35,076 nt of DNA from Ignavibacteria bacterium (GTDB taxonomy: Bacteria; Bacteroidota; Ignavibacteria; Ignavibacteriales; SURF-24). The stretch spans positions 1 through 35,076 of the forward strand of contig JAAXKQ010000027.1 of NCBI GenBank assembly GCA_025612245.1, in the 5' to 3' direction. Each line of letters opens with the position of its first letter. Position 1 is the first letter of the stretch. Made by a program: the position numbers and the translations under genes. Below the pieces are notes generated by a model. That model did no database searches, was not told the origin of the DNA, and saw only the letters and a list, made by a program, of their open reading frames with translations. Below, one piece after another: positions 12,470 to 35,076 of the stretch.

Positions 12470-13783
12470 TTATTTAATTTTCACCCTTTCTCCACCAAGC
12501 GTGCCCATGGATTTTTTCAGCCTTATCAGCGAGGTATTATAGTCGTAAAGCGCCTGTATGTTCGTTATCCTCGCGTTTGAAAGCGTAATCTGCGCATCAG
12601 TTATTTCCGTAGGCGAGCCTACACCGGAGTTATAGCGACCCTTTGCCAGCCTGAGGTTTTCCACGGCCGACTGCACCAGTTTTTCCGAGGCCCCGATTCT
12701 CTGGAAGGCTTCGTCTGCTGCCAGGTAGCTCTGCGAGACGTCCAGTATTGCATTCTGCCTCGCCAGGTCCTCCGTTGCCGCAGCCTCTTCGACGTTAGCC
12801 TGACTTTCCTGTACCTGTGCACTGACGTAAAAGCCCTGGAAAATGGGCAAGCTGAAATTAAGTCCGGCGTTCCACCTGCTGTATAAAGGAAGCCCGAAGC
12901 CGTTCCAGTTGTAGTTCCCCACGGCAGAAATTACGGGGAGGTTCTGCGCCCAGGAAGCACTAAGGAGTTCCTTGTTTGCCTGCACCCTGAAATTTGCCGC
13001 CTTTAATTCCGAACGGTTCTCAAGTGCAATTGCTCTTGCGCTGTCTATGGACAAACTGAGCCTGACGGCTTTAAGAGAGTCAAGGAGCACATAGTTCTTA
13101 GGGTTCTGCACTCCAATTGCGTTTTCAAGCTGCAGCTTTGCTATCTGTACCTGGTTCCGGGCCCGCAAGAGGTTTACCTCGGCATTTGCTACGTCTACCT
13201 CTGCCTTTGTGACGTCGTATTCAGCCGTTCTACCGGCCTTGAAGAAAGCCTGTGCCACCTTCAGGTGCTCCTGCGCCTGCTGAAGCGTCTCCTCGTCAAC
13301 TCTTACAACGTACTGAGTCTGAAGGAAGGAGTAGTATGCGGTCTGTACCGATACGATTACGTTTTCAAGTGCCGACTGGTAGTCCTCGGCCGAAGCACCC
13401 AGGAAGTTTTCGTTTGCGGAGACTCTTGAGGAAGTTCTCCCGAAATCCCAGAGGAGCTGCTGCGCCTGGAAGCCTGCCGTATAGCTCCTGTAGGTCTGTT
13501 CGCGCACGGGAATAGAAGGGTTAAATACAAAGGAGCCTTCAGTATAGGTTCCGGAGGCATTAAAGCTGATGACAGGGAAGTAGCCGGAACGGCTCTGCCT
13601 TAAGAGGGCGTTACTGACGTCGTAGCCCGAAGTGGCAATCCTTACCGAGGGATTGTTCTCAAGCGCCATCCGGGTAGCATCCTGTATGGAAAGCCTGTCG
13701 AAATCAGTAAGCCTGGCCTGCCCATGAACATTGGCAAGAAAAACCATGAGCAGAATGGCTGCAAGTGCCGTTTTTTGAATCAT
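12470..13783 (-). CDS. TolC-family outer-membrane efflux protein
   Basis: Outer-membrane channel (OMF) of a tripartite pump, 437 aa, the usual length. A signal peptide covers residues 1-21 (MIQKTALAAILLMVFLANVHG). The mature part holds the two internally repeated OEP units: the first from about LSIQDATRMALENNPSV to LENAIGV, the second from about ALENRSELKAANFRVQA to IRLKKSMG, each with long coiled-coil helices rich in Ala, Gln and Asn. Its ATG overlaps the stop of the RND gene by 4 bases (TCAT 13780-13783 on the plus strand), so the genes are translationally coupled. It is the last gene of the minus-strand pump operon. Confidence 0.94.
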   Translation of the reverse strand: MIQKTALAAILLMVFLANVHGQARLTDFDRLSIQDATRMALENNPSVRIATSGYDVSNALLRQSRSGYFPVISFNASGTYTEGSFVFNPSIPVREQTYRSYTAGFQAQQLLWDFGRTSSRVSANENFLGASAEDYQSALENVIVSVQTAYYSFLQTQYVVRVDEETLQQAQEHLKVAQAFFKAGRTAEYDVTKAEVDVANAEVNLLRARNQVQIAKLQLENAIGVQNPKNYVLLDSLKAVRLSLSIDSARAIALENRSELKAANFRVQANKELLSASWAQNLPVISAVGNYNWNGFGLPLYSRWNAGLNFSLPIFQGFYVSAQVQESQANVEEAAATEDLARQNAILDVSQSYLAADEAFQRIGASEKLVQSAVENLRLAKGRYNSGVGSPTEITDAQITLSNARITNIQALYDYNTSLIRLKKSMGTLGGERVKIK

Positions 13784-16700
13784 TTATCGTTTTCCTCCCC
13801 CGTACTTTCTGTCATGGAGTCTTCTCCGTTTGATTTCCTGATTTTCCTCCTGAATTTCAGTTCAAAGACCATATAAAGTGCCGGTACAAAAAAGAGCGTC
13901 AGCAGAGTGGAGATCGTAAGGCCACCGATTACGGCAATTGCAAGGGGGGCCTGTGTGTTTTCGCCGCCGATTCCAGCGGCCATGGGAATGAGTCCCAGCA
14001 CGGTGGCAAGCGAGGTCATAAGTATCGGTTTAAGCCTCGTCCTGCCTGCCAGTACAACTGCCTCGTTCAGTGCAATGCCCTGCATCCTGAGCCGGTTTGT
14101 AAAATCAACGAGCAGTATGCCGTTACTGACAACGATACCGATCATGACAATTATTCCCTGGAATGATGTAACCGAGAGCGTGGTGTTTGTCAAGAACAGC
14201 GCCCATAAGACGCCTACAAGCCCCAGAGGAACGGTAAACATTATTATGAAAGGATCTATAAATGACTGGAACTGCGAAGCCATTACGACATAGATCAGGA
14301 GAATTGCGAGTGCAAATGCAAGAAGAAGGTCGCTGAAAGTTTTCTGCTGCTGTTCCACGTTTCCGGTCAGCTTTATCTCAAAACCGGGAGGAACCGTAAT
14401 TCCGGAAAGCCTCTGGTTAATGTCCGAAGCCACGCTTCCCAGGTCGCGTCCCGTAACATTTGCCGTCACGTCAACTATTCTCTGCTGGTACTTTCTATCG
14501 ATCTGAACCGGGGCATTGGCTCTCTGGATAGTTGCTATATTGCCTAAGAGCACCTGATCGCCCGACGGGGTAGTAATGTTTATGTTCTGAAGGTCGTTAA
14601 TCTGGGACCTGTAGTTTTCGTTCAGCCTTACCAGTATGTTATACTGGTTTCCTGTAACGGGATCCGTAAAAAGCGAAGCGACGCTTCCGTTGATCATGGT
14701 ATTAATTGTATTGGAAATTTCCGCTACATTAATGCCAAGTGTTCCTGCCTTCTGCCGGTCGATATTGATCCTCAGTTCAGGGAGGTTATCCTCGCGGCTG
14801 CTTTGGACGTCTGTTGCCCCGGGGACGCTTCGTACAATGTCCGATATCTCGTGCGAAAGCCTGGAGCCCGTCTCAAGGTCGAAGCCCCTGATTTCAACGT
14901 CAATTGGAGCTGTGGAGCCGAAGTTCATCAGGAACTTTAAGAATCCCCCGGTACTTGCAAAGACTGTCATGCCGGGAATTCCGGAGATTTTCGGGCGCAG
15001 TGCCTTTACGATTTCAAAAACCGTCCTGCTGCGCTCTTCAACCGGCAGAAGCGCAACCTGTATGTTGGCCGCATGGCTGCCCGCGTTCCTGCTGAAGAGG
15101 TTTCCGCTTCTAGAGGCCGGGACGCCAATATCTGAGATCATTGTCTGTACTTCAGGTACGTTTTTAAGAATTATCTGCTCCAGGCGCCTAACGGTCTCAT
15201 CGGTTACCTCGGCTCTCGTTCCTACCGGGAGCTTTACGGTCAGTGTAAACTGTCCTTCATCCTGTTCGGGGAAGAATTCCGTTCCAATAAACTTGAAAAG
15301 TACCAAAGAAACCAGGGCTGCTGCAACAATCCCAAGTATGACGTACCTTTTCTTTCTTAACCCCAGTTCAAGAAGCCGCACGTACGAGTCGTCAATTTTT
15401 TCAAGCGCGTCGTGCGCAAAAACCCTAATCATGTCGGGAAGTTTTGTGGAATTCCTGTCCAGCTGCTTTTCAGGGGGAAGGTATTTGAGGCACATCAGGG
15501 GCGTGACGGTTCTTGAGACAAAGAAAGAACCGAAGAGTGCCACGGCAATTGTAATTGTAAGAGGAATAAAGAGCATCTTGGCTATGCCGCTTAAGAAGAC
15601 GATGGGTAAAAATACAATGACAGTTGTAAGCGTGGAAACAAAGATCGGGGAGGCAACCTCCTTTGCCGCTGCCAGAGTGGCCTGGATTTTATTTTGCCCT
15701 TCGTGTCTTTCATTATAATGGCGCGAAATTGCCTCCAGCTCCACAATCGAGTCATCTACAAGGCGTCCTACTGCAAGGGCAAGTCCGCCGAAGGTCATTA
15801 TGTTTAAGGTTACGTTACCGAATCGGAACCAGATAAAAGTAATAAGAATGGATAAGGGGATTGCAACCAGAATTATCAGCGTGCCCCTTAAGTTCCTGAG
15901 GAAAAGCATGATTATGATCATTGCCAGTACTGCACCCAATAAGGCTTCTCTTTGGAGGCCGGAGATTGTCTGCCTGATGTAGACCGACTGGTCGAATGAA
16001 AGAGAAAGCCTGACTGTGTTTGGTACCCCGTTAAGGTGCGGAAGGGCTCGTACGACCGCGTCTACAACCTCAACTGTATTTGCGTTTGCGAGTTTCTGTA
16101 CTCTAAGCGTGAGTCCGGGCTGTCCGTTGATTCTTACTAGCTCGGTCTGCTCCTGGAAGCTGTCCTCAACTTTCCCGATATCACGGATCCTGATGGGCAC
16201 ACCGTTTGAGACCCTTACTACAATGTCCTGCATCGGCTGAACTATGTTAAATCTGCTTTCGGTCTTGAGCGAGTAGTCGTACGTGCCGGCCTTAAGGTCA
16301 CCCGAAGGAATAATGAGGTTTGAATTTGCAATTGCGCTTAAGACAACCTGAACGGGAATCTGGAGGGCTTCAAGGCGGTCGCGGTCTACCGTAACGTGAA
16401 TCTCGCGGATTTTACCACCGAGGACCTGTGCAGATGCCACCCCGGGCAGGTGCTCTATCTGAGGCTCAACGACGTTGTAGGCCAGGTCGTAAAGATCCCT
16501 TTCATCCATATTGCCCGACATGGCGATGTTGCAGACGGGCAGGTTAGTGATGTCGAACCTGAGGACGACGGGGGTATTTATGCCCGTAGGAAGCTGGTTC
16601 ATAATACGGTTTACCCTTTGCACCACGTCTACTAGTCCTACGTCCAGGTTTGCATCCCAGTTAAAGTTAATTCTCACCTGCGAGATGCCTTCTTTTGTAG

Positions 16701-16947
16701 ATGACTGCACATAATCGACGTCGCTGACCGAGCTGACGTTCCTTTCAACCAGCGTCGTAACGGTCTGCTCCATGTCCAAAGGGCCTGCGCCGGGATAAAA
16801 AGTAACCGTCGTTACTACGGGAATTGTAATATTGGGAAGCAGGTCCACAGGGAGCTGTGAAAATGAAACCACTCCGAATACCATAATGATGCAAGCCAGC
16901 AGGAATGTGGAAATAGGGTACCGGAGCGCTAATCTAGTTAACCACAT
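13780..16947 (-). CDS. RND-family efflux transporter (AcrB/HAE-1-like)
   Basis: Inner-membrane proton-driven pump subunit, 1055 aa, full length for AcrB-like proteins. The N-terminal helix is followed by the porter domain with FYPGAGPLDMEQTVT, typical of the family. The TM4 proton-relay pair is present as Asp398-Asp399 in VGRLVDDSIVELE. In TM10 (about residue 940) the motif is VSNGILLVDF; the position of the E. coli AcrB Lys940 is taken by a Ser, as in other non-proteobacterial members. The C-terminus is polar and acidic. It lies between the adaptor gene (27 bases upstream) and the TolC-like gene (4-base overlap). Substrate is probably drugs or other amphiphiles; export of the lipopeptide made at the right end is possible but unsupported. 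Confidence 0.95.
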   Translation of the reverse strand: MWLTRLALRYPISTFLLACIIMVFGVVSFSQLPVDLLPNITIPVVTTVTFYPGAGPLDMEQTVTTLVERNVSSVSDVDYVQSSTKEGISQVRINFNWDANLDVGLVDVVQRVNRIMNQLPTGINTPVVLRFDITNLPVCNIAMSGNMDERDLYDLAYNVVEPQIEHLPGVASAQVLGGKIREIHVTVDRDRLEALQIPVQVVLSAIANSNLIIPSGDLKAGTYDYSLKTESRFNIVQPMQDIVVRVSNGVPIRIRDIGKVEDSFQEQTELVRINGQPGLTLRVQKLANANTVEVVDAVVRALPHLNGVPNTVRLSLSFDQSVYIRQTISGLQREALLGAVLAMIIIMLFLRNLRGTLIILVAIPLSILITFIWFRFGNVTLNIMTFGGLALAVGRLVDDSIVELEAISRHYNERHEGQNKIQATLAAAKEVASPIFVSTLTTVIVFLPIVFLSGIAKMLFIPLTITIAVALFGSFFVSRTVTPLMCLKYLPPEKQLDRNSTKLPDMIRVFAHDALEKIDDSYVRLLELGLRKKRYVILGIVAAALVSLVLFKFIGTEFFPEQDEGQFTLTVKLPVGTRAEVTDETVRRLEQIILKNVPEVQTMISDIGVPASRSGNLFSRNAGSHAANIQVALLPVEERSRTVFEIVKALRPKISGIPGMTVFASTGGFLKFLMNFGSTAPIDVEIRGFDLETGSRLSHEISDIVRSVPGATDVQSSREDNLPELRINIDRQKAGTLGINVAEISNTINTMINGSVASLFTDPVTGNQYNILVRLNENYRSQINDLQNINITTPSGDQVLLGNIATIQRANAPVQIDRKYQQRIVDVTANVTGRDLGSVASDINQRLSGITVPPGFEIKLTGNVEQQQKTFSDLLLAFALAILLIYVVMASQFQSFIDPFIIMFTVPLGLVGVLWALFLTNTTLSVTSFQGIIVMIGIVVSNGILLVDFTNRLRMQGIALNEAVVLAGRTRLKPILMTSLATVLGLIPMAAGIGGENTQAPLAIAVIGGLTISTLLTLFFVPALYMVFELKFRRKIRKSNGEDSMTESTGEENDK

Positions 16948-16974
16948 ATAAAAGATCTTTCACTTAAAAAGTTG

Positions 16975-18048
16975 TTACTTATTTTTTGCTAATCTTACCT
17001 TAATTCCGTCTTTCAGGAACTGCTGCCCCACGGTAATGACGTTTGCCGAATCGGTAAGGCCCCGGGTGACCTCGGTACGGCCGTTCTGATCGGCTCCGGT
17101 CTGAACGTCGCCGCGTTTGGCATTTCCTCCTTCAAACAGGTAGACGAAATTACCCTTGTCGTCGTGCATTACCGACTGCACGGGCACGGTAAGCGTATTT
17201 AGGTGCTGTGCCGCAATAATGTTGACCTCGGCGTACATTCCGGGCTTCAGGGCGTAGTCCCTGTTTGGTATTACAATCTCAACAGCCAAGGTGCGCGTAG
17301 TCAGGTCAATTGCCTGGTTGACCCTGGAGATAGTGCCCAGGAAATCGCGTCCCGGGAAGGCGTCTACCTTAAGTATGGCTTTTTTCCCGAGGGCAATTGA
17401 CGGTATGTCTTTCTCCAGGATATTCACTACAATCTTGACGCTGTCGTTATCCATAATTGTATAGAGTGTAGAACTGCCCGGCTGAACCAGGGCCCCGCGG
17501 TCGAGAAATCTTTTGGTTATATATCCGCTGAAAGGGGCGGTTATCCTGGCGTAGCTGAGCCTGGTCTGTGCGGTGGCAAAGTTGGCAGAGGAGACTTTTA
17601 AGGCTGCCTCGGCATTATCCAGCTCCTGCCTTGCAATCAGGTTCTGCTGGAAAAGCTGTTTTGTGCGGTTGTAGTTTATCTTATTGTTGTTGAAAGTAGC
17701 CAGTGCCTGCTCATACTGCTGAAAAAGCTCGGTTGAGTCTATTACGGCAAGCATCTGGTTGCGCCGGACGCGGGAGCCAATGTCGGCGTACATCCTTTCA
17801 ATGTTGCCGCTTACCTTGGAGAAGATATTTGCCTGCTGCACGGGTGATATGTCGCCTGTATACCTGAGCATATAGGTGACATCCTGCCTTAGCGGTTTTT
17901 CAACCTGCACCAGGGGAGCCATCTGTCGTGTAGCCTGTGGCGCCTGGTTATCCTGCCTTCCAGAAAAAATCCTGAATCCAATAAATATAATCACCAGGGC
18001 CGCGGCAATTATTATGATCAGTTTTGTCCTTTTGTTCATCTGCTTCAC
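16975..18048 (-). CDS. RND efflux periplasmic adaptor (MFP/HlyD-like)
   Basis: A 357-aa adaptor bridging RND pump and outer-membrane channel. It has an N-terminal membrane anchor at about 8-29 with no lipobox Cys, so it is an anchored rather than lipid-modified form. Then come a barrel-sandwich half (NIFSKVSGNIERMYADIGSRV), an alpha-hairpin of about 60 residues (EQALATFNNNKINYNRTKQL), the second lipoyl half (ARITAPFSGYITKRFLDRGA), a beta-barrel, and a membrane-proximal domain ending LKDGIKVRLA. First gene of the pump operon; its promoter must lie in 18049-18338, shared with the divergent pentapeptide gene. Met4 is an alternative start. No local repressor gene is present. Confidence 0.94.
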   Translation of the reverse strand: MKQMNKRTKLIIIIAAALVIIFIGFRIFSGRQDNQAPQATRQMAPLVQVEKPLRQDVTYMLRYTGDISPVQQANIFSKVSGNIERMYADIGSRVRRNQMLAVIDSTELFQQYEQALATFNNNKINYNRTKQLFQQNLIARQELDNAEAALKVSSANFATAQTRLSYARITAPFSGYITKRFLDRGALVQPGSSTLYTIMDNDSVKIVVNILEKDIPSIALGKKAILKVDAFPGRDFLGTISRVNQAIDLTTRTLAVEIVIPNRDYALKPGMYAEVNIIAAQHLNTLTVPVQSVMHDDKGNFVYLFEGGNAKRGDVQTGADQNGRTEVTRGLTDSANVITVGQQFLKDGIKVRLAKNK

Positions 18049-24572: not shown

Positions 24573-25361
24573 ATGAAAAAAATTCTACTGATTGAAAACG
24601 ACGCCAGCTATTGTAACTATATCCGCGAACTGTTGGAAGACTTTGGCTATAAGACTGCCGTTGCGGAAAACGGCAGGGAAGGCATTAAGATTGCCAGGCT
24701 TGCAATGCCCGACCTTATTATCTGCAGCACTGAACTCTCTGAGCCCGACGGATACTCGGTCTTTGACGAGATTAATAAAAGTCCCGAGACCGGTGCAACC
24801 CCCTTTATATTTTTTGCTCCGGCCGGCAAGTCGGGCATAGAGGAATTCCGGCGGGCAATGGACCTGGGAGTTGATGACTTCCTGATTAAGCCCGTCAGAT
24901 CCGGCCACCTCCTGAAGGTAATTGAAACGAGGCTAAAGAAGGTGGACCGGATAATGGAAAAGCAGGAAAGCCTCACAAAGAAGAACAACAAGAACAATTC
25001 CTTCAAAAAACTCACCAGCGACGACCGGCTCTTTCTAATGGTTGGAAACCACCCAGAAATCATAAAAATAAACAAAATTGTGTTTATTACTGCTGCCGAG
25101 GAATACAGCAATGTATATACCACAGACGCCAGGCATCTCCTGGTACAAAAGCTCCTGAAAGAGTGGGAGAAAACTCTTCCTTCAAAAGTCTTCCTGAGAA
25201 TCCACCGTTCTACGATAATAAATCTCGACTACGTAAAAAAAGTTGAAAAGTGGTTTAATCACTCCTTCCGTGTCTACCTGGAAGACGTTAGTGAGCCTTT
25301 CATCATTAGCAGAAGATACAGCACCCGTTTAAGAGCCCTCCTGAACACTTCCAAAAGATGA
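24573..25361 (+). CDS. LytTR-family response regulator with degenerate receiver
   Basis: A 262-aa transcription factor. The receiver-like domain (1-125) keeps the fold, with the N-terminal acid motif reading IENDA and Lys106 in DFLIKPV. However, the phosphoacceptor position is Ser52 (DLIICSTELSEPDG instead of a DLILLD-type motif) and the conserved Thr/Ser is Ala82. Ordinary Asp phosphorylation is therefore not expected. A Lys/Asn-rich linker (about 126-155) leads to a LytTR DNA-binding domain (about 161-258: AAEEYSNVYTTDARHLLVQK, then LRIHRSTIINLDYVKKVEKW). The NRPS genes follow on the same strand, 260 bases on, with LytTR-like repeats between. It is probably their regulator. No histidine kinase is adjacent. 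Confidence 0.92.
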   Translation: MKKILLIENDASYCNYIRELLEDFGYKTAVAENGREGIKIARLAMPDLIICSTELSEPDGYSVFDEINKSPETGATPFIFFAPAGKSGIEEFRRAMDLGVDDFLIKPVRSGHLLKVIETRLKKVDRIMEKQESLTKKNNKNNSFKKLTSDDRLFLMVGNHPEIIKINKIVFITAAEEYSNVYTTDARHLLVQKLLKEWEKTLPSKVFLRIHRSTIINLDYVKKVEKWFNHSFRVYLEDVSEPFIISRRYSTRLRALLNTSKR

Positions 25362-25422
25362 GCCTCATTATAGCACGCCTTATGCACAAAGCACCAAAGT
25401 AAATAGCCCTTGATACGTGAAG

Positions 25423-25472
25423 AGTAACCCTTTACTATAAAAAGTAACCGTTTATTGATTTTATTCGTTTAC
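25423..25472 (+). promoter_or_regulatory. LytTR-like direct repeats upstream of the NRPS operon
   Basis: AGTAACCCTTTA (25423-25434) and AGTAACCGTTTA (25443-25454) are direct repeats one base different, exactly 20 bp apart, so they lie on the same helix face. The second contains ACCGTTTAT, which fits the AgrA-type LytTR pattern [TA][AC][CA]GTTN[AG][TG] as I recall it. A weaker third copy, TTCGTTTAC (25464-25472), overlaps the -35 box. This is the arrangement expected for LytTR activator sites. Confidence 0.55.
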
Positions 25473-25496
25473 AGGGCAATTATTTATTATTATAAG
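25468..25496 (+). promoter_or_regulatory. Candidate promoter of the NRPS operon
   Basis: TTTACA (25468-25473), 17-base spacer, TATAAG (25491-25496). The -35 box abuts the direct repeats, fitting an activated promoter. The leader to the ATG at 25622 would be about 120 bases. Confidence 0.5.
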
Positions 25497-25621
25497 TCAT
25501 GTGTCTTCTACTCAATGGGAGTGTGTTTTTGAGGGTTCGGTCTTCCGTATACTGTGGGTGTTGTGCTGTATTGTGATTATGATTATGCCGTGCAAAATTT
25601 AATAAATAATTGCGGAAAGAT

Positions 25622-28600
25622 ATGAATTACGAGGCGATGGAATACGCAGGACTGAATTTTAAGACGAGTAGTTTTGTTGATATACTTAAATATCGTGCGG
25701 AACATTCGGGTGATAAAGTAATATTTACTTTCCTGTCCGAAGGGGATAATAGACAGGAGAGCATATCCTATGCCGAGCTGGACGAAAAGGCCAGGCAAAT
25801 AGCTGCCTGCCTGCAGTCCCTGAAATTAAAGGGGGAAAGGGCACTGCTTTTATATCCTCCGGGCTTGCAGTATATAGCAGGATTTTTCGGATGCCTTTAT
25901 GCCGGGCTGATTGCTGTGCCGGCTTACCCTCCCAGTCCCGCCGCACTGGAACGTTCCCTGCCAAGACTGGAAGCTATTTCAAAAGATGCAGAAGCCTCGC
26001 TCGTACTGACCACAGAAAAAATAAAATCCCTCATGCAGGTTTATTTCGGACGCATGCCGCAGAGTGTGCAATCCAGCAGGGCAATAAAAAAATGGAATGA
26101 ATCCGCGGCTGCCTCTGAGATAAACAGGCTAAACTGGATTGCCACGGATTCACTTGAAGGTGCCGAATGCGGCAATTACAGGGAGATGCACTTTTCTTCC
26201 AAAGAAACTGCCTTTCTTCAGTACACTTCGGGCTCAACCGGCTCACCAAAGGGGGTAAATGTCAGCCACGGTAATCTAATACACAACTCCGCTCTGATTA
26301 AGGATGCCTTTGGAATTGATGCTGAAAAAATGGAAGTTGTACTCTGGCTGCCATTTTATCACGATATGGGGCTTATCGGGGGAGTCCTTCAGCCGGTTTT
26401 CTCAGGCATTCATGCCAGACTCATGTCGCCAATTTCATTTCTTAGCTGGCCGCTGAGGTGGCTTCAAATTATTTCTTCCGTCAAAGACAAGTCTGTCATC
26501 AGCGGCGGTCCGAATTTTGCATACGAACTCTGCCTCAGGAAACTCTCCCCCGAACAGATTGAAAGCCTGAACCTCAGCAGATGGGATATCGCCTTTACTG
26601 CCGCCGAGCCTGTCCGGGCAGAGACAATAGAGAATTTTTCAAACGCATTCAGGCCCTCTGGATTCAGGAAAGAGGCATTCTTCCCGTGCTATGGGATGGC
26701 GGAGACAACTTTGATGGTAACGGGGAAAAGCTCTAAGGAACCTCCGGTCATAGAAGCTTTCGGCAAAAAATCGCTCCAGGGAAATATTCCTTCAAAAGAT
26801 GCCGGCGGTAGTGGGGATACGCCACTAAAACTGGTCGGGTGCGGCAAGGCCGCAGGTGACCTCAAGGTAATTATTGTCAATCCTGAGACCGGAAGAAGGT
26901 GTCCCAATGGGGAAATCGGCGAAATCTGGGTCTCCGGTGCCAGCGTTGCTAACGGATACTGGAAGAAAAGAGAAGAGACGCTTAATACTTTTCACGCCTT
27001 GACAGAAAATGAAAAAGAAGGCCCTTTCTTAAGATCGGGAGACCTCGGGTTCCTGGATGAAAACGGTGAACTGTTTATTACGGGAAGAAAAAAGGACCTG
27101 ATCATAATAAGAGGAAGGAATTTCTACCCGCAGGATATTGAGCGCACGGTTGAAAAATCGCACCCTTCCTTGCGTCCTTCGTGTGTAGCGGCATTCTCAA
27201 TTGAGGAGGGAGCGGAAGAACGCCTGGTTGTCGTTCAGGAAATCTCGGCCGGAGAGAGCGACCCGGATGAGATCATCGAAAAAATCAGGGGTGCAATAAA
27301 CGAAGAACATGAAATCCTGGCTTACTCAATTGTTCTGATAAAGGCCAGGACAATTGCAAAGACCTCCAGCGGAAAGATCCAAAGGCAGGAAATTAAAAAG
27401 CAGTATTTATCCAATTCTCTGGGTGTAATTAAGGAAAGCAAGCTTTCCGGCATTTCCATCAAGCAAAAGTCCCATAAAAAGGAAGAGGCTTTGGATCTGG
27501 CCTTACGCATTAAAGATAATCCCGACATAAACAATGTCGGCAGGTGGCTCATAAACGCCCTGTCGTCGATACTTAAAACCGAGCTGCAGAATATCTCACC
27601 GGGTAGGCCGATTTCAAGTTTTGGGATGGATTCCCTGATGATGGTGGAATTGAAAAACGACATTGAGTCGAAGCTCGGGATCAGCATTTCAATATCCGAA
27701 TTTTTCCAGAATTCCACTTTCTCCAAGCTGTCCTATAAAATCGTAGAGCAGATGTCACGCCGGCGCATATCATCCGCCCGGGTTATACCCGTAATGGAAA
27801 AGCGGGAAGAAAGCGTATTGTCCTATGGACAGAAGTCACTCTGGTTCATGCAGCAGCTCGAGCCTGGCAATGCCGCATACAACGTATTCTTTGCCGCAAA
27901 GATTCAATCCGAGCTTGATGTCAGTGCACTTAGGAAATCCCTGGATATCATTGTTGAAAGGCACGCCTCGCTTAGAACCGTATACGTAAATAACGGCAGC
28001 GAGCCGGTGCAGAAAATTCAGGCAAGCGGAATGAACTATTTTTCACAAACGGATGCAAAGGGATGGAAGGATAACGAGTTAAGAGAAAAGATCATAAGCG
28101 AGGCTCATCTTCCTTTTGACCTGGGCAAAGGACCTTTATTCAGGGCCTCTCTTTTTGATGTTCCGGATGGGGAACACATACTGCTGCTGAATTTCCACCA
28201 TATTGCCGTGGACTTGTGGTCAATTGTCATTTTGCTCTCAGAACTAAGGGCGCTATATCCGGCCATAAAAAGGGGAGAGAAACCTGAACTGGAGCACACA
28301 GAACTGCAATACACAGACTTTGCAAACTGGCAAAAAACGTATCTTGAGGGTCCGGAAGGAAGAAAGAGTTTGGATTACTGGAAGCATCAGCTCTCAGGCG
28401 AGCTTCCCGTAGTAAATCTTCCCTTCGATAAAGCCAGGCCTCCGGTAAAAACCTATAACGGCGCCGTATTTTCATTTCAGATAAATAACAAGATCACAAA
28501 CAGGCTGAAGACAATTGTACGCGATGAAAATTCAACTTTATACATTCTCCTTCTTTCGGCCTTTAATATTCTTCTGTCGAAGTACACAAACCAGGATGAA

Positions 28601-31075
28601 ATCATCGTAGGATCTCCTGGCGCGGGAAGAACCCATTCGGAGCTGGAAAACATAGTCGGTTACTTTGTAAACTCAATGGTCATAAGAAGCCAGGTAAAGG
28701 AAGACCTTTCCTTCAGGGAATACCTGCACGGCATAAGAAAGACTGTGCTTGAGGCTTTGGACCATCAGGATTACCCGTTTTCGCTGCTGGTTGAAAAAAT
28801 GCAGCACTACCGGGGTGCCAGCCGCTCACCTTTCTTTGACGTAATGTTTGTTCTTGAAAGGCCGCACCTGCTAAAAGAGCTGGGACTGGCAGGATTCATC
28901 CTTTCAGATTCCGGGGCCAAAATTAACATTGGCGGATTAAAAATGGAATCTTACTACATAGAGCAGAAAGTAGCACAGTTTGATCTGACGCTCAGCATTG
29001 TTGAAAAAGCAGATTCACTTTCGGCGTCTTTCCAGTTTAATACCGACCTCTTTGAGAAAGGCACAATAAGCCAGATGGCAGAACATTTCCGCAATCTTTT
29101 GACAGAAATTGCCGAAAATCCACAAAAAAGAATAAGCGAAATGTCTTTGGTTTCAAAGATGGAAAGAAATTCCCTGGTAAACATGTGGAATTCGGTAAAT
29201 AATAATTTCCAGGAGAAGCTTCTAATACATGAATTATTTGAGGAATATGTAGGGCTGAATCCACAGGCCGTAGCCGTTAAATTCGACGGGAGCACTGTGA
29301 CTTACGGACAGCTGAATCATCTTGCAGAAAAGGTGAAAAGCCGACTTGAAAGGATGAATTTGCCTGCCGAAACCCCCGTAGGTATATACAGCAGAAGATC
29401 CATTGAAATTATTGCAGGAATACTGGGCATATTTAAGGCAGGCCTGACCTATATCCCGCTTGATCCTGAATACCCCGAGGAAAGAACAAACTATATGATC
29501 GGTGACGCAGGAATATCGGTGGTTTTAACGCAGGCGGAGCTGTCGGGGCGTATTAGAGATAAAAATCTGGAAGCGGTCATACTGGATGATATAAAAGATG
29601 AGATTATGCCTCAGGCTTACTTCTCAAGGTCAGTTGAGCCTGAAGGCACTGCCTATGTCATTTATACTTCCGGCTCCACGGGGAAACCAAAGGGTGTCAT
29701 GGTCTCTCACCAGGCGCTTGCCAACCACTGCAGGCAGATAAAAAACAGCTACAAAACCACGGAAAAAGACCGCGTGCTTGAGTTTTCCTCCATGAATTTC
29801 GACGCCTCATTAGAGCAGATATTTACGACACTGATTTCCGGGGCCACTCTGGTTCTAAAGGACGAGGAGCTATTAAGTCCGAAGGAGTTCCTGGAAATGC
29901 TGAATTCTGAGGAAGTATCGGTCCTGAACCTGCCTCCCTCATACTTTGAGCAGCTGGTAAGCGAATGGGCGAAATATGAGAGCCTGAACTTCCACAGGCT
30001 GCGCCTTGTAATAGTGGGGGGAGATGTTTTGTATTTCAACACGATAAAAAAATGGTTTACCCTCGCCCCGGTCGGAATAAAACTCATTAATGCATACGGG
30101 CCCACGGAAACTACAATTACTTCGGTTGCAGGAGAAATAGGGCCTGAGGTTGTACGCGATTGTGAAAGAAGTATTCCGATTGGCAAACCTCAGGCAAACA
30201 GGACGGCCTATATACTGGATTCAAAGGGAAATTTAGCCCCCAGGGGTGTAATAGGAGAACTTTATATCGGGGGCAGCTGTCTTGCCCGTGGATATACGGG
30301 AAAGCCGGATCTGACGGCCGAAAAATTTATACCCGATGCATTCAGCAAAAGCGAGGGGCAGCGGCTCTATAAAACCGGGGACCTGGCAAGGTACATCGGC
30401 GACGGGAGTCTGGAATTTATCGGCAGGGTGGATCACCAGGTTAAAATCCGCGGCTTCAGAATTGAACTGGGGGAAATTGAAACGGTACTTCACCTGCATC
30501 CTTCTGTCGAAGAAGCTGTGGCAGTGCTAAAGCAGAACGCCCGGGGAGATAAGAGCATTGCCGTCTACATTGTACCCGGAGAAAATTATAATATTAGTGA
30601 ACTGAAGAATTACTTAAGGCAGCAGCTACCCGATTTTCTTATTCCTTCTTTTTTTGTAAAAATGGAGCACCTGCCTTTAACACCGGCAGGCAAGATTGAC
30701 AGGAGGGCATTATCCGCCTTCCCGACGGATTTTACCGATTCCGGAGAAACATATAAGGCGCCACAGACACCGCTGGAGAAGAATATTGCAGGCATTATAT
30801 CTGAAGTGCTCGGGGTCCAGAGAGTCGGGCTTTATGACAACTTTTTTGATCTCGGGGGGCATTCACTCCTTGCCATTAAAACCCTGTCGAGGATAAATTC
30901 CTTTTATAAGATTGAACTGACCGTAAGGCAGATGTTTGAAAACCCGACTGTTGCCGGTCTGGCAGATGCAATTTTAAGCAGGCAGCTTGGAACCGACCAA
31001 GACGAGTTAAAGGAAATGCTTTCAAATATTGAAAATCTTTCGGACGATGAGGTAAGAAAACTACTTGGTGAATGA
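25622..31075 (+). CDS. Lipopeptide-initiating NRPS: FAAL-ACP-C-A-PCP
   Basis: Multi-enzyme of 1817 aa. Residues about 1-590: fatty-acyl-AMP ligase (YTSGSTGSPKG from 201; LPFYHDMGLIGG; GRKKDLIIIRGRNFYP), which activates a fatty acid. About 635-705: carrier domain, Ser671 in FGMDSLMM. About 720-1155: condensation domain, His859-His860 in HHIAVDLW, where the usual DG is DL. About 1170-1690: adenylation domain (YTSGSTGKPKG from 1348; NAYGPTETTI; GRVDHQVKIRGFRIELGEIE). Its selectivity residues, read by eye against GrsA, are D-A-E-N-I-G-A-I-T-K. About 1695-1790: PCP, Ser1748 in DLGGHSLLA. The acidic C-terminus (LSDDEVRKLLGE) may dock to the next enzyme. No thioesterase or epimerase. I chose ATG 25622 (GGAAAG five bases upstream) over an in-frame TTG at 25610. 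It loads a fatty acid and adds the first amino acid. Confidence 0.93.
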   Translation: MNYEAMEYAGLNFKTSSFVDILKYRAEHSGDKVIFTFLSEGDNRQESISYAELDEKARQIAACLQSLKLKGERALLLYPPGLQYIAGFFGCLYAGLIAVPAYPPSPAALERSLPRLEAISKDAEASLVLTTEKIKSLMQVYFGRMPQSVQSSRAIKKWNESAAASEINRLNWIATDSLEGAECGNYREMHFSSKETAFLQYTSGSTGSPKGVNVSHGNLIHNSALIKDAFGIDAEKMEVVLWLPFYHDMGLIGGVLQPVFSGIHARLMSPISFLSWPLRWLQIISSVKDKSVISGGPNFAYELCLRKLSPEQIESLNLSRWDIAFTAAEPVRAETIENFSNAFRPSGFRKEAFFPCYGMAETTLMVTGKSSKEPPVIEAFGKKSLQGNIPSKDAGGSGDTPLKLVGCGKAAGDLKVIIVNPETGRRCPNGEIGEIWVSGASVANGYWKKREETLNTFHALTENEKEGPFLRSGDLGFLDENGELFITGRKKDLIIIRGRNFYPQDIERTVEKSHPSLRPSCVAAFSIEEGAEERLVVVQEISAGESDPDEIIEKIRGAINEEHEILAYSIVLIKARTIAKTSSGKIQRQEIKKQYLSNSLGVIKESKLSGISIKQKSHKKEEALDLALRIKDNPDINNVGRWLINALSSILKTELQNISPGRPISSFGMDSLMMVELKNDIESKLGISISISEFFQNSTFSKLSYKIVEQMSRRRISSARVIPVMEKREESVLSYGQKSLWFMQQLEPGNAAYNVFFAAKIQSELDVSALRKSLDIIVERHASLRTVYVNNGSEPVQKIQASGMNYFSQTDAKGWKDNELREKIISEAHLPFDLGKGPLFRASLFDVPDGEHILLLNFHHIAVDLWSIVILLSELRALYPAIKRGEKPELEHTELQYTDFANWQKTYLEGPEGRKSLDYWKHQLSGELPVVNLPFDKARPPVKTYNGAVFSFQINNKITNRLKTIVRDENSTLYILLLSAFNILLSKYTNQDEIIVGSPGAGRTHSELENIVGYFVNSMVIRSQVKEDLSFREYLHGIRKTVLEALDHQDYPFSLLVEKMQHYRGASRSPFFDVMFVLERPHLLKELGLAGFILSDSGAKINIGGLKMESYYIEQKVAQFDLTLSIVEKADSLSASFQFNTDLFEKGTISQMAEHFRNLLTEIAENPQKRISEMSLVSKMERNSLVNMWNSVNNNFQEKLLIHELFEEYVGLNPQAVAVKFDGSTVTYGQLNHLAEKVKSRLERMNLPAETPVGIYSRRSIEIIAGILGIFKAGLTYIPLDPEYPEERTNYMIGDAGISVVLTQAELSGRIRDKNLEAVILDDIKDEIMPQAYFSRSVEPEGTAYVIYTSGSTGKPKGVMVSHQALANHCRQIKNSYKTTEKDRVLEFSSMNFDASLEQIFTTLISGATLVLKDEELLSPKEFLEMLNSEEVSVLNLPPSYFEQLVSEWAKYESLNFHRLRLVIVGGDVLYFNTIKKWFTLAPVGIKLINAYGPTETTITSVAGEIGPEVVRDCERSIPIGKPQANRTAYILDSKGNLAPRGVIGELYIGGSCLARGYTGKPDLTAEKFIPDAFSKSEGQRLYKTGDLARYIGDGSLEFIGRVDHQVKIRGFRIELGEIETVLHLHPSVEEAVAVLKQNARGDKSIAVYIVPGENYNISELKNYLRQQLPDFLIPSFFVKMEHLPLTPAGKIDRRALSAFPTDFTDSGETYKAPQTPLEKNIAGIISEVLGVQRVGLYDNFFDLGGHSLLAIKTLSRINSFYKIELTVRQMFENPTVAGLADAILSRQLGTDQDELKEMLSNIENLSDDEVRKLLGE

Positions 31076-31156: not shown

Positions 31157-34100
31157 ATGGATAACATAAAAGAAAGAATTGCTGAACTTTCTCCGGAAAA
31201 ACTGGCACTCCTGATAAAAAGGTTAAAGAAGGATAAGAGCCCTTCTGAAGACTGTATTATTCAGCGGAAATGTAATTCCAATGAATATCCCATGTCTTCC
31301 GAACAAAAGGGGATCTGGTTCTTGCAGCAGCTAAAACCCGAGAGTACATTCTACAATATACCTGCTGCGGTAAGGATAAAAGGGGCGCTCAATGTGCAGG
31401 CATTGATTGGGGCCATAAAATCAATAATCAAGCGCCACGAGGTGCTGCGGGCAAATTTCACTCTTCAAGGTGATGAACCCCGAGAGATCATCAGGCCGTT
31501 CGACGAACTCGCAATTGATATCCCTGTCCTGGAATACCCGGATGCTTCAGATATTCAGGCACGAATTGGGGAAGCCATTATAGAAGAAAGGGACAGAAAA
31601 TTCAGCCTTGCAGAGGACAGCCTGATACGCGCAAAGCTTATTGCTATTAATAAAAATGAGCACTTGCTCTTTTTGACATTTCACCACATTATTTCCGACG
31701 GCTGGTCTTTGGGCATTTTCATTAAAGAACTTTCCAGGCTTTATAAGTCCTACTCGGAGAATAAAGAGCCGGAGCTGGAAGAACTGCCGATCCAGTACAC
31801 GGATTACGCCTTCTGGCAGGAGAGCTACCTGAAAAGTACAAAGTATGAAAAGTCGCTTTCATACTGGAAAGAAAAACTGGGAGGAATGCCCGTTGAGCTA
31901 AGTCTGCCGCTGGATAAAAAGCGCCCAACGGCGCAAAGTTTTGCGGGCTCACATTATAACTTTTCCGTAAGCCCTGAGGTTGCAGTCAGCCTCAGAGAGC
32001 AGTTTAAAGCCTTAAACGTGAACGGGTTTGTTTACTTTTTAACCGCCTTTGAGATTTTGCTATCCAGGTATTCAAATCAGTATCAGTTCGGCATCGGCCT
32101 GCCCGTTGCCAACAGGTCAAAGTTCCAGACGCAGGAATCGATAGGCCTTTTTACAAATACAGTGGTAATAAGGGCGGATCTGGCAGAAAGCCATACCGTA
32201 AGTGACGTTCTTAAAGGGACGAAAGACTCTGTCATGGATGCTTTCGAAAATCAGGAATGCCCGTTCGAGAAGGTTGTAAATGCCCTCAAGCCGGAACACA
32301 ATACCGGACTCAGCCCCCTGTTCCAGGCGGTCTTCGATTTCCAAAACCGCCCTTTATATTCTCTTAAGATGGACGGGCTGGATATTGAAATAGCTGACAT
32401 TGAAAGGGGTACCTCGAAATATGACCTTACGCTTTCAGTGGAAGAGGGGACAGAGGGCTACAAATGCACAATTGAATATTCCACGGATCTCTTCTTTGAA
32501 GAAACCATTGAGAGGATGTCAGGAAGTTTCCTGAATATATTAAAGGATATGGCGGGAAATGAAAATAAACTCATAGGGGAGCTCCTTCTGCTTTCAGAAA
32601 AAGAAAGAAACCGCATACTTTATGAATGGAACAATACCCGAAGCCCTTACCCCAGGGAAGAGACATTCCACCACTTATTTGAGCTCCAGGCCCTGGAGAC
32701 TCCGGATAAGACGGCAGTGGTTTATGAAAATAAAAAACTGACCTTCAGGGCATTAAACCGAAGGGCTAACCGCCTGGCTCACACTCTTATTGCAATGGGA
32801 GTTGGCCCGGAGAGGATTGTCTGCCTTTATATGGACAGGTCGGTTGACATCATGGTTGCAATTTTTGCAATTCTCAAGGCCGGGGGAGCATACCTGCCTC
32901 TGGACGTTAACTCACCTGTTCAGCGCCTGAAAATGATTCTGGATGATATAAAAGACCCGATAATACTGACACAAAACAGGTTGAAAGGAAGGCTTAAGCT
33001 TGAAGGCATAAATACGCTTGGAATAGATGAGCCTGATGGATATTCCCATAAAGCTGGTTACACTAACCCGGTTACAAAAGTGTGCCCTGAAAACCTGGCC
33101 TATATAATCTATACCTCAGGCTCAACCGGCAGACCCAAAGGCGCAATGATTACTCACCGGTCGATAGTAAACCTTGTACATGCGCTTGACAGGGACATAT
33201 ATTCCAGGGCTCTTAATAAAAGGATAAAGAAAAAAAGTCTTCCGGAAGGCAAGCCCCTCAGGCTGATGATGAATTCCTCGCTCATTTTCGATGCATCAAT
33301 TCAGCAGATGATCCTTATTACAAAGGGGCACTGTATATATATTCTCCCGGATGAGATCAGGCGGGACGGGCGGGCGTTTGTAAACTACATCAGAAAACAT
33401 AGAATAGAGGTACTGGACTGTGTGCCTTCACAGCTTACCATGCTTTTAGAAAGCGGACTTCTGGAAGAAAATAAATACTGTCCTTTTCTTGTTCTTCCGG
33501 GCGGAGAGGCAATAAGCATGAGCGTATGGAAAGAGCTGTCAAAAACCCGCAGGACCGAGTTTTTTAACATGTATGGTCCTACCGAAACGACCGTGGAAGT
33601 AACGGCAGCCCATATCAATGATTCAGAAAGTCAGCCCGTTATTGGAAAGCCACTGGATAACGTCCGCCTTTATGTGCTGGATAAGTATCATAATCCTCAG
33701 CCCGTTGGCGTTACCGGGGAGCTATTCATTGCAGGCGAGTGCCTGGGAAGAGGCTATCTTAACAGGCCCGAGGTTACGGCGGAAAAATTTATACCAAATC
33801 CTTTTGCGGAAATATCGGGTGAAAGGATCTATAGAACAGGCGATCTTGCCCGCTACACGCACAAAGGAGACGTGGAGTATATGGGGCGACTGGACAGCCA
33901 GGTAAAGATCAGGGGATTTAGGATTGAACTGGGTGAAATTGAGTCGGCAATAAATGAACTGCCGGCTATAAAGGAATCGCTTGTAGTGGTCCGGGAGGAT
34001 ACAGCAAACGACAGGAAAATAGTTGCTTATCTGATTCCCAAAAACAAAGGGGCTTTTTCGCCACGGGAAATAAAGCAGATGCTGAAGGGGAAACTTCCTG

Positions 34101-35076
34101 AATACATGATACCGTCTTATCTGATGGTGCTGGAAGATTTCCCGCTGATGCCTTCAGGAAAGATAGACAAGAAAATGCTGCCTGCTCCAAAGCCGGAGGA
34201 TTCTCTTTCGGGTAATGAGTTTCTTGCTCCAAAAACCGCTCTGGAATGCGAACTGGCAAGAATGTGTGAGGACGTCCTGAATGTTAAAAACATAGGACTT
34301 AAGGATAATTTCTTTGAACTGGGAGGGGACTCAATCAAAGCCGCGATATTCATGAACAGGATCCGCTCCAGGTATAAAGAACAGATTCCTGTAAAGGCAA
34401 TCTTTGAGAATCCGGCTCTTCTTGATCTATCTGCATACCTGTTAACAACTCATCCCGGCAAGTTCTTGCTCAAAGGCGCATCCTCCATTTCTTCAATAAA
34501 AAAGGCTTCCCGAAATGATGAAATTCCACTTTCGTATACACAGGAAAGGATGTGGTTTTTAGAACAGCTGGAACCGGGTAAGGCCGTCTATAACCTGCCA
34601 ATTATGTTCAGGATTAAAGGAGAGCTAAACCCCGATCTGCTTGCAAAAAGCCTTAACGAGATAATAAGGCGTCATGAGGTCTTAAGACTTTCTCTCACAA
34701 GTACCGAAGGAAAGGCAAAGGCAAAACTGAATTCGCATGTAAAGGTTAAATGCACTCTTACCGACTTACGGGCACTGTCTAAAGGTGAGCAAGATGATTT
34801 TATAAGCCGGATTTTGGAAGAAACGGCAGCACAGCCTATACCGCTAGACAATGCTCCGCTTTTCAGGACGAGCCTGCTGGCTATTTCGGAAAAGGAATAC
34901 CTGCTTATTGCCGTATTCCACCACATAATAATGGATGAATGGTCCTCCAGGGTGATCATAAGTGAGCTGTCGGAAATATATACTTCACTTAAATCGGGAA
35001 GGAGGCCTTTACTTCCAGAGTTAAAGATCCAGTACGCGGATTATGCCATCTGGCAGAGGGAATATCTTCAAGGAGA
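31157..35076 (+). CDS. NRPS elongation enzyme: C-A-PCP-C..., runs off the window
   Basis: The frame from ATG 31157 stays open to the last base (1306 codons seen). A short N-terminal helix (ELSPEKLALLIKRLKK) is of the linker/docking type. About 45-465: condensation domain with canonical HHIISDGWS at 176-184. About 480-1010: adenylation domain (YTSGSTGRPKGA near 650; MYGPTETTVEV). Here the region before the pocket is unusual, with a basic insertion (NKRIKKKSLPEGK) and LDCVPSQL; selectivity residues by eye are D-A-Q-D-V-P-M-V-E-K. About 1020-1090: PCP, Ser1059 in LGGDSIKAA. From about 1110: second condensation domain, HHIIMDEWS from 1255, cut by the window edge. It should take the acyl-aminoacyl chain from the upstream enzyme and add at least one more residue. 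No frameshift is seen. Confidence 0.94.
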   Translation, partial: MDNIKERIAELSPEKLALLIKRLKKDKSPSEDCIIQRKCNSNEYPMSSEQKGIWFLQQLKPESTFYNIPAAVRIKGALNVQALIGAIKSIIKRHEVLRANFTLQGDEPREIIRPFDELAIDIPVLEYPDASDIQARIGEAIIEERDRKFSLAEDSLIRAKLIAINKNEHLLFLTFHHIISDGWSLGIFIKELSRLYKSYSENKEPELEELPIQYTDYAFWQESYLKSTKYEKSLSYWKEKLGGMPVELSLPLDKKRPTAQSFAGSHYNFSVSPEVAVSLREQFKALNVNGFVYFLTAFEILLSRYSNQYQFGIGLPVANRSKFQTQESIGLFTNTVVIRADLAESHTVSDVLKGTKDSVMDAFENQECPFEKVVNALKPEHNTGLSPLFQAVFDFQNRPLYSLKMDGLDIEIADIERGTSKYDLTLSVEEGTEGYKCTIEYSTDLFFEETIERMSGSFLNILKDMAGNENKLIGELLLLSEKERNRILYEWNNTRSPYPREETFHHLFELQALETPDKTAVVYENKKLTFRALNRRANRLAHTLIAMGVGPERIVCLYMDRSVDIMVAIFAILKAGGAYLPLDVNSPVQRLKMILDDIKDPIILTQNRLKGRLKLEGINTLGIDEPDGYSHKAGYTNPVTKVCPENLAYIIYTSGSTGRPKGAMITHRSIVNLVHALDRDIYSRALNKRIKKKSLPEGKPLRLMMNSSLIFDASIQQMILITKGHCIYILPDEIRRDGRAFVNYIRKHRIEVLDCVPSQLTMLLESGLLEENKYCPFLVLPGGEAISMSVWKELSKTRRTEFFNMYGPTETTVEVTAAHINDSESQPVIGKPLDNVRLYVLDKYHNPQPVGVTGELFIAGECLGRGYLNRPEVTAEKFIPNPFAEISGERIYRTGDLARYTHKGDVEYMGRLDSQVKIRGFRIELGEIESAINELPAIKESLVVVREDTANDRKIVAYLIPKNKGAFSPREIKQMLKGKLPEYMIPSYLMVLEDFPLMPSGKIDKKMLPAPKPEDSLSGNEFLAPKTALECELARMCEDVLNVKNIGLKDNFFELGGDSIKAAIFMNRIRSRYKEQIPVKAIFENPALLDLSAYLLTTHPGKFLLKGASSISSIKKASRNDEIPLSYTQERMWFLEQLEPGKAVYNLPIMFRIKGELNPDLLAKSLNEIIRRHEVLRLSLTSTEGKAKAKLNSHVKVKCTLTDLRALSKGEQDDFISRILEETAAQPIPLDNAPLFRTSLLAISEKEYLLIAVFHHIIMDEWSSRVIISELSEIYTSLKSGRRPLLPELKIQYADYAIWQREYLQG

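Follow-up and report, generated by a model that had tools for sequence, protein, structure and literature searches.

What controls the NRPS genes at the end of this contig, and does the LytTR regulator encoded just ahead of them take part? Throughout, the window denotes the whole stretch of DNA that was analysed, 35,076 nucleotides long. In it, a 260-bp spacer that separates the LytTR gene (24573-25361) from the NRPS start codon (ATG at 25622) holds AGTAACC[C/G]TTTA twice, 20 bp apart, which raises the question of whether this repeat is an operator. The features that the argument draws on are the following, where G001 is a second genome of the same genus.

24573-25361, + strand: LytTR response-regulator gene, 262 aa (Pfam LytTR, PF04397, 1.9e-24; Response_reg, 4.1e-17)
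25406-25414, + strand: weak candidate outer half-site GCCCTTGAT, 21 bp ahead of the next half-site; aligns with ACCTTTTAT in G001
25423-25434, + strand: first copy of the 12-bp repeat, AGTAACCCTTTA, read directly
25427-25435, + strand: candidate half-site ACCCTTTAC; ACCGTTTAC in G001
25443-25454, + strand: second copy of the 12-bp repeat, AGTAACCGTTTA, one mismatch to the first copy, spacing 20
25447-25455, + strand: candidate half-site ACCGTTTAT, 20 bp past ACCCTTTAC with 11 bp between; degraded to ACCGGACGT in G001
25488-25493, + strand: proposed -10 box TATTAT, 32 nt past the second half-site; TATCAT at the aligned place in G001
25622-31075, + strand: first NRPS gene, ATG at 25622 (TTG 25610 in the ORF list)
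31157-35074, + strand: second NRPS gene, running off the contig end (contig of 35,076 bases)

The first NRPS gene encodes AMP-binding, carrier, condensation, AMP-binding and carrier domains, and from this order and a DIP2-like subdomain the first AMP-binding domain is probably a fatty-acyl-AMP ligase (FAAL). Some 6.5 kb upstream of the LytTR gene, three RND efflux genes (HlyD-type, AcrB-type and outer-membrane factor) occupy 12470-18048 on the - strand.

A first-pass annotation had reported two 12-bp direct repeats with one mismatch and a spacing of exactly 20 bp, 61 bases behind the regulator gene. We could confirm both the repeats, at 25423-25434 and 25443-25454, and the distance, the ORF ending at 25361; the identity stretches to 13 of 15 positions (25420-25434 and 25440-25454). 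When the 260-bp spacer was shuffled 4000 times (dinucleotide shuffling), 11 or more of 12 positions were identical at spacing 20 in 0.125% of cases, at spacings of 20-22 in 0.275% and at any spacing from 12 to 60 in 4.05%; 13 or more of 15 at spacing 20 occurred in 0.05%. Counting the repeat by itself is too weak as proof, as about 4% of shuffled spacers match at some spacing; taken alone, the window repeat is weak, suggestive evidence for an operator, and the comparison with relatives carries the case. The annotation had also placed a third copy over the -35 (TTCGTTTAC, 25464-25472, + strand). This copy did not hold up: it is out of register, lying 17 bp past the second half-site, it is poorly conserved, reading TTGGCTAAC in G001, and it is probably outside the operator, the weak third half-site sitting upstream instead. 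Rfam at gathering thresholds gave no match anywhere in the window.

Read as 9-bp half-sites, the window pair is ACCCTTTAC-11 bp-ACCGTTTAT in direct orientation, and so agrees with the sites in excerpts of PMC6193735, that is 9-bp half-sites near ACCNNTTAT, direct and 11-13 bp apart. In that source the LRS half-sites are ACCNCTTAT or ACCACTTAC, 11-13 bp apart and about 10 bp before the -35, the BrsR site is ACCACTTAT-12-ACCGCTTAT, and a LytTR site of Treponema bryantii is ACCACTTAT-11-GCCACTTAT. The resemblance to the BrsRM/HdrRM LRS of Streptococcus mutans concerns half-sites and spacing. As these excerpts describe them, LRS regulators have no receiver, an inhibitory membrane protein as partner and repeats before their own operon, whereas the window regulator has a receiver, DnaJ and NRPS genes as neighbours and the repeats behind its gene.

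For a wider comparison, we took 50 LytTR genes from the window's genome and its relatives and searched 350 nt on either side for over-represented direct-repeat spacings. The 50 proteins comprise the best match from up to 30 of the 46 matching genomes (59 searched), chosen paralogues and selected loci, and the 49 downstream regions include near-duplicates (the window and G001, L037 and L038, L047 and L054). With no motif assumed, spacing 20 was found downstream of the LytTR genes in 22 of 49 regions against 2.6 expected and spacing 21 in 11 of 49 against 2.8, the next excess being spacing 42 (8 against 2.4). Upstream, spacing 20 was at chance (3 of 50 against 3.2 expected), spacing 21 was seen in 7 regions against 2.8, and the biggest excess was at spacing 33 (8 against 2.4).

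The motif common to the downstream repeats is near CCCGCTTACTACA. In a two-fold test at a score of 16, pairs were found in 20.1 of the 49 downstream regions (mean of ten splits). As controls, the reverse strand of these regions gave 0.0, the two upstream strands 0.1 and 0.8, shuffled sequences 0.1, and incorrect spacings 0.1 and 0.8. Unlike the spacing test, this one is not wholly independent, because the seeds of the motif came from these regions themselves. Ten of the 49 regions gave no qualifying pair and three more scored under 10. When the motif was trained without the window and G001, 25427 was the best + strand position of the 35-kb window, and its pair beat 500 of 500 shuffles of its own region; its score, 13.8, falls short both of the two-fold test's threshold of 16 and of the 14.2 reached by a - strand position, 33739, within the second NRPS gene. 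The motif alone is unspecific, because coding positions in a G004 locus (L158; G004 is a genome of the same family) reach 17.6.

As to what follows these LytTR genes, the first downstream ORF of 70 aa or more shares the strand of the regulator gene at 42 of the 50 loci and is on the opposite strand at six, with none in view at two. Of the proteins encoded downstream, 18 (346-384 aa) are similar at 2e-44 or better to one receiver-HisKA-HATPase protein, which is counted among them, and Pfam confirmed seven of the 18; the other Pfam results among the 20 downstream proteins scanned include transporters (MFS, SSF and EutH), receivers standing alone and parts of chemoreceptors. The same-order LytTR genes with a receiver-HisKA-HATPase gene downstream share the motif, the spacing, the strand and the position just behind the regulator with the window locus; they differ in their downstream genes and in their half-sites, which never start with A in the same-family cases examined. 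From these comparisons, the window seems to exemplify a more general layout, in which an operator after the regulator gene faces the next promoter.

Pattern scans of the window's own genome (G000) gave no bulk excess of such sites. CCGYTTAY-N12-CCGYTTAY matched 32 times at up to two mismatches, compared with 42 for the reversed control. Only two of the 32 have at most one mismatch, namely the window site and one directly after another LytTR gene, and five, at four places, stand just behind LytTR genes. Exact AAAAGTAACCGTTTAY occurs once in G000 and once in G001, both times at this operator; at up to two mismatches it is near background (18 against 20 in the control for G000, 23 against 16 for G001). 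A separate site, G000:C40:94081-94128 (L092, L155), has three in-register half-sites 20 bp apart, followed some 230 bp later by a chemoreceptor gene; the ORFs of the surrounding 3 kb include no LytTR gene.

We then compared the spacer in relatives. G001 retains the order DnaJ-LytTR-NRPS, with 88% identity in the regulator and 80% in the first 500 NRPS residues. While the surrounding spacer has diverged, a three-part array is present (ACCTTTTAT, ACCGTTTAC and ACCGGACGT, spaced 21 and 20): its outer half-site is better than that of the window, its last one is degraded, and the ACCTTTTAT-ACCGTTTAC pair scores well. The repeat conservation that the annotation had proposed to check in relatives keeping both genes thus holds, the repeats being kept in G001, although the equivalent of the second window half-site is degraded there. 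In the stretches fetched, the G001 operator, at 19.3, is the only intergenic pair above 10 inside or at the head of the cluster, and one further intergenic pair (11.2) lies among the genes ahead of it. This cluster runs as same-strand ORFs from the NRPS start at C18:67549 via further NRPS ORFs to near C18:18,500, where a thioesterase-bearing NRPS, an MFS exporter and a PPTase end it; the Pfam scan left out three intervening ORF pieces.

In G004, the gene behind the related LytTR gene encodes a beta-propeller/fn3 protein and not an NRPS, and the NRPS start, 47% identical and cut by a contig end, lies behind thioesterase and PPTase genes. The spacer before this unlinked NRPS gene carries ACCACTTAC-11-ACCGCTTAT, and another pair is found roughly 150 bp ahead of the thioesterase gene in the thioesterase-PPTase set. 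The pattern TAACCRYTTAY-N9-TAACCGYTTAY, at up to three mismatches, has five matches in G004, compared with none for its reversed version. Four of them point at the start of a gene on the same strand (NRPS, thioesterase, chemoreceptor and T9SS-type secreted protein); the fifth does not. Elsewhere, the pattern matches twice in G000, never in G001 and zero to two times in the other five genomes (controls zero to two). A possible second TAACC-type site in the window's genome, with three mismatches, lies at G000:C3:26027 (L066, L150), about 570 bp before the gene of a T9SS-type secreted protein. LytTR-like pairs in G004 at C23 positions 781, 5068 and 6017 (L158) and at C307:3188 (L154) precede, respectively, a T9SS-type secreted protein, the LytTR gene itself, a large beta-propeller/fn3 protein and another T9SS-type protein; they hint at a secreted-protein regulon, a hint that needs caution because equally high scores, up to 17.6, are reached inside coding sequence on C23.

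Altogether, a pair precedes the NRPS gene in all three family genomes found with one, among five family genomes examined. Among 391 genomes sampled from the class, 12 have NRPS homologues, nine of them outside the family. Seven of these nine have upstream DNA in view, with no convincing pair in it (best 11.1, in G339), and two loci show under 110 upstream bases, too few for a judgement, so that the link between operator and NRPS is shown only within one family. Before the homologues in G286, G360 and G339 (L127, L128 and L129), the upstream DNA seems to encode the end of a CheW-like protein.

The claim that LytTR-type sites stand before the NRPS gene is borne out by the resemblance of the half-sites to those in excerpts of PMC6193735, by the recurrence of the motif after LytTR genes and by the pair in three of three genomes; together, these comparisons make a predicted LytTR operator before the NRPS gene well supported. 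That the repeat arose by chance or is the site of another protein is, in our judgement, very improbable: it would fit the 4% of shuffled spacers and the conservation of AGTAACC, which reaches past the usual 9-bp half-site, and is opposed by the spacing-20 signal behind LytTR genes, the strand bias and the operators of G001 and G004.

Which promoter would such an operator serve? The hexamers TTTACA-N17-TATAAG named by the annotation are present (25468-25473 and 25491-25496), but they are absent from the consensus scan and unconserved in G001, which has CTAACT and CATAAC there, and we rejected them as the promoter. The scan, near chance with five promoters found against 3.3 expected, offers TTGATA-N17-TACTAT at 25410-25438 (+ strand) instead. 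A promoter overlapping the repeats could be blocked by a bound LytTR protein, and repression of this kind has a parallel in AgrA acting on bsaA via a site downstream of the promoter (excerpts of PMC4227749). Yet these hexamers are unconserved in G001 (TTTATT and TACTAC), and many sites of the family stand at a fixed distance before a promoter-like element, as activator sites do; we consider repression here quite improbable.

Activation, which we prefer, would act on the TATTAT box at 25488-25493. A 17-bp spacer would put the start of its -35 at 9 bp past the half-site, where the sequence is weak and holds no good -35. The TATCAT of G001 begins 32 nt past its degraded third half-site, ACCGGACGT; the nearest comparable box before the G004 NRPS gene, TAATAT, starts 26 nt and not 32 nt past the half-site. 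Among the 33 scored sites downstream of LytTR genes, a CGAWWAW element begins 31 or 32 nt past the second half-site in 13, at 51 or 52 nt in three more and elsewhere in three others. It often reads CCGAATAT or CCGATAAT, and is also present at G004:C309 near 23227 (L153). The element may resemble the -10 of flagellar-type sigma promoters, and some genes behind it encode chemoreceptors. In the window, transcription would start near 25500, about 7 nt past the -10, and on this assumption the repeat centre, 25441, lies near -59. AgrA repeats are likewise centred near -60 of the promoter in excerpts of PMC4227749, and the tandem 9-bp direct repeats of agr P2/P3 in Staphylococcus aureus are a close parallel to the arrangement here, where binding is predicted.

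We next consider the regulator. Its LytTR domain has the conserved FhRhHRS motif (excerpts of PMC4227749) as FLRIHRS. Its receiver, in contrast, has S52 and N9 where 45 of the 50 aligned proteins have Asp at each place, the same five proteins lacking both; in an alignment with the solved receiver 3gt7, S52 falls on the Asp. The receiver has thus lost its phospho-acceptor Asp (D to S), which is intact in 45 of 50 proteins of the same-order set, and one metal-binding Asp, and an ordinary kinase switch is therefore unlikely. No cognate kinase gene adjoins it either, the flanking genes being DnaJ and NRPS. These two observations speak against the "complete dedicated switch" of the first-pass annotation, and "dedicated" is further weakened by the similar half-sites that follow other LytTR genes of the same genome and by the G004 sites that also face other genes. 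The locus also departs here from AgrA, which is kinase-driven and acts on its own locus (excerpts of PMC4227749), its receiver lacking the Asp and its target being an NRPS gene.

The regulators of the window, G001 and G004, with S, S and E at the phospho-acceptor place, group in one clade with support of 95/98. Two further LytTR regulators that have N in place of the receiver Asp, L048 in G000:C25 and L056 in G001:C25, are on a long branch and have no operator downstream.

A LytTR regulator may be active without phosphorylation: according to excerpts of PMC12323615, ComE of Streptococcus mutans binds and activates with its Asp replaced by Ala and expression raised. Unlike the window regulator, ComE has the Asp and a kinase, and its independence was seen with altered proteins at raised expression.

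The operator could also be genuine and yet be worked by a paralogous regulator with an intact receiver, the adjacent degenerate protein competing or pairing with it. G000 does hold several further LytTR response regulators (nine matches), with similar half-sites behind some of them. Against this, the regulator adjoins the operator in both same-genus genomes, and NRPS-linked half-sites share TAACC-type starts, unlike those behind kinase-linked paralogues; we regard control by a paralogue as unlikely. Half-sites starting with A make up 9 of 11 that are linked to NRPS or thioesterase genes or to the clade of the window regulator and 0 of 10 that are linked to kinase or chemoreceptor genes (Fisher p 0.0002), the latter group coming from four loci of the same genus, three with a kinase and one with a chemoreceptor. 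As the groups were hand-picked and the sites are not independent, this contrast only hints that the adjacent regulator may have a half-site specificity of its own.

Taking these observations together, we consider it likely that 25406-25455 is a LytTR operator, bound most likely by the adjacent regulator, that activates the NRPS operon. It would consist of a pair of good 9-bp half-sites at a spacing of 20 bp, with a weaker half-site outside them, and the LytTR regulator, most likely the product of the preceding gene, would bind these in tandem on one helix face. The bound regulator would bring RNA polymerase to a promoter whose -35 is weak and whose -10 lies at 25488-25493, and this recruitment would switch on the NRPS operon. 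Since the receiver lacks a phospho-acceptor, the amount of regulator or a non-phosphate signal or ligand probably sets the output. Use of the operator by the adjacent regulator is likely, and activation of the NRPS operon by the predicted binding is probable.

Among the literature matches listed (titles and abstract starts), none describes a LytTR operator at an NRPS gene, and among those listed for LytTR in Ignavibacteria or Bacteroidetes there is no paper on LytTR sites in this group. Links between LytTR regulators and lipopeptides are only indirect in excerpts of PMC11782227, PMC10663231 and PMC9040809, as where treR deletion in Streptococcus mutans raises one LytTR system and lowers mutanobactin lipopeptide proteins.

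The window element is of a known kind, and what is new is its setting: the receiver is degenerate, and the placing next to the downstream neighbour seems to be part of a wider pattern. More broadly, we see an even chance that the dead-receiver LytTR lineage is a phosphorylation-independent, pathway-specific activator of lipopeptide clusters whose operators were kept after regulator and cluster separated, and that across the order the target promoter often lies behind the regulator gene. If LytTR target promoters often stand right behind the regulator's own gene in this order, targets would be readable from the genome, by a rule that combines half-site, spacing, distance to the promoter element and place behind the regulator gene. 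The predicted operator also gives experiments a starting point for finding what switches on a large lipopeptide cluster in a lineage that is represented here by genome assemblies. A naturally phosphate-blind LytTR regulator, if the proposal is true, would be a clean system for studying how such regulators act in the absence of phosphorylation.
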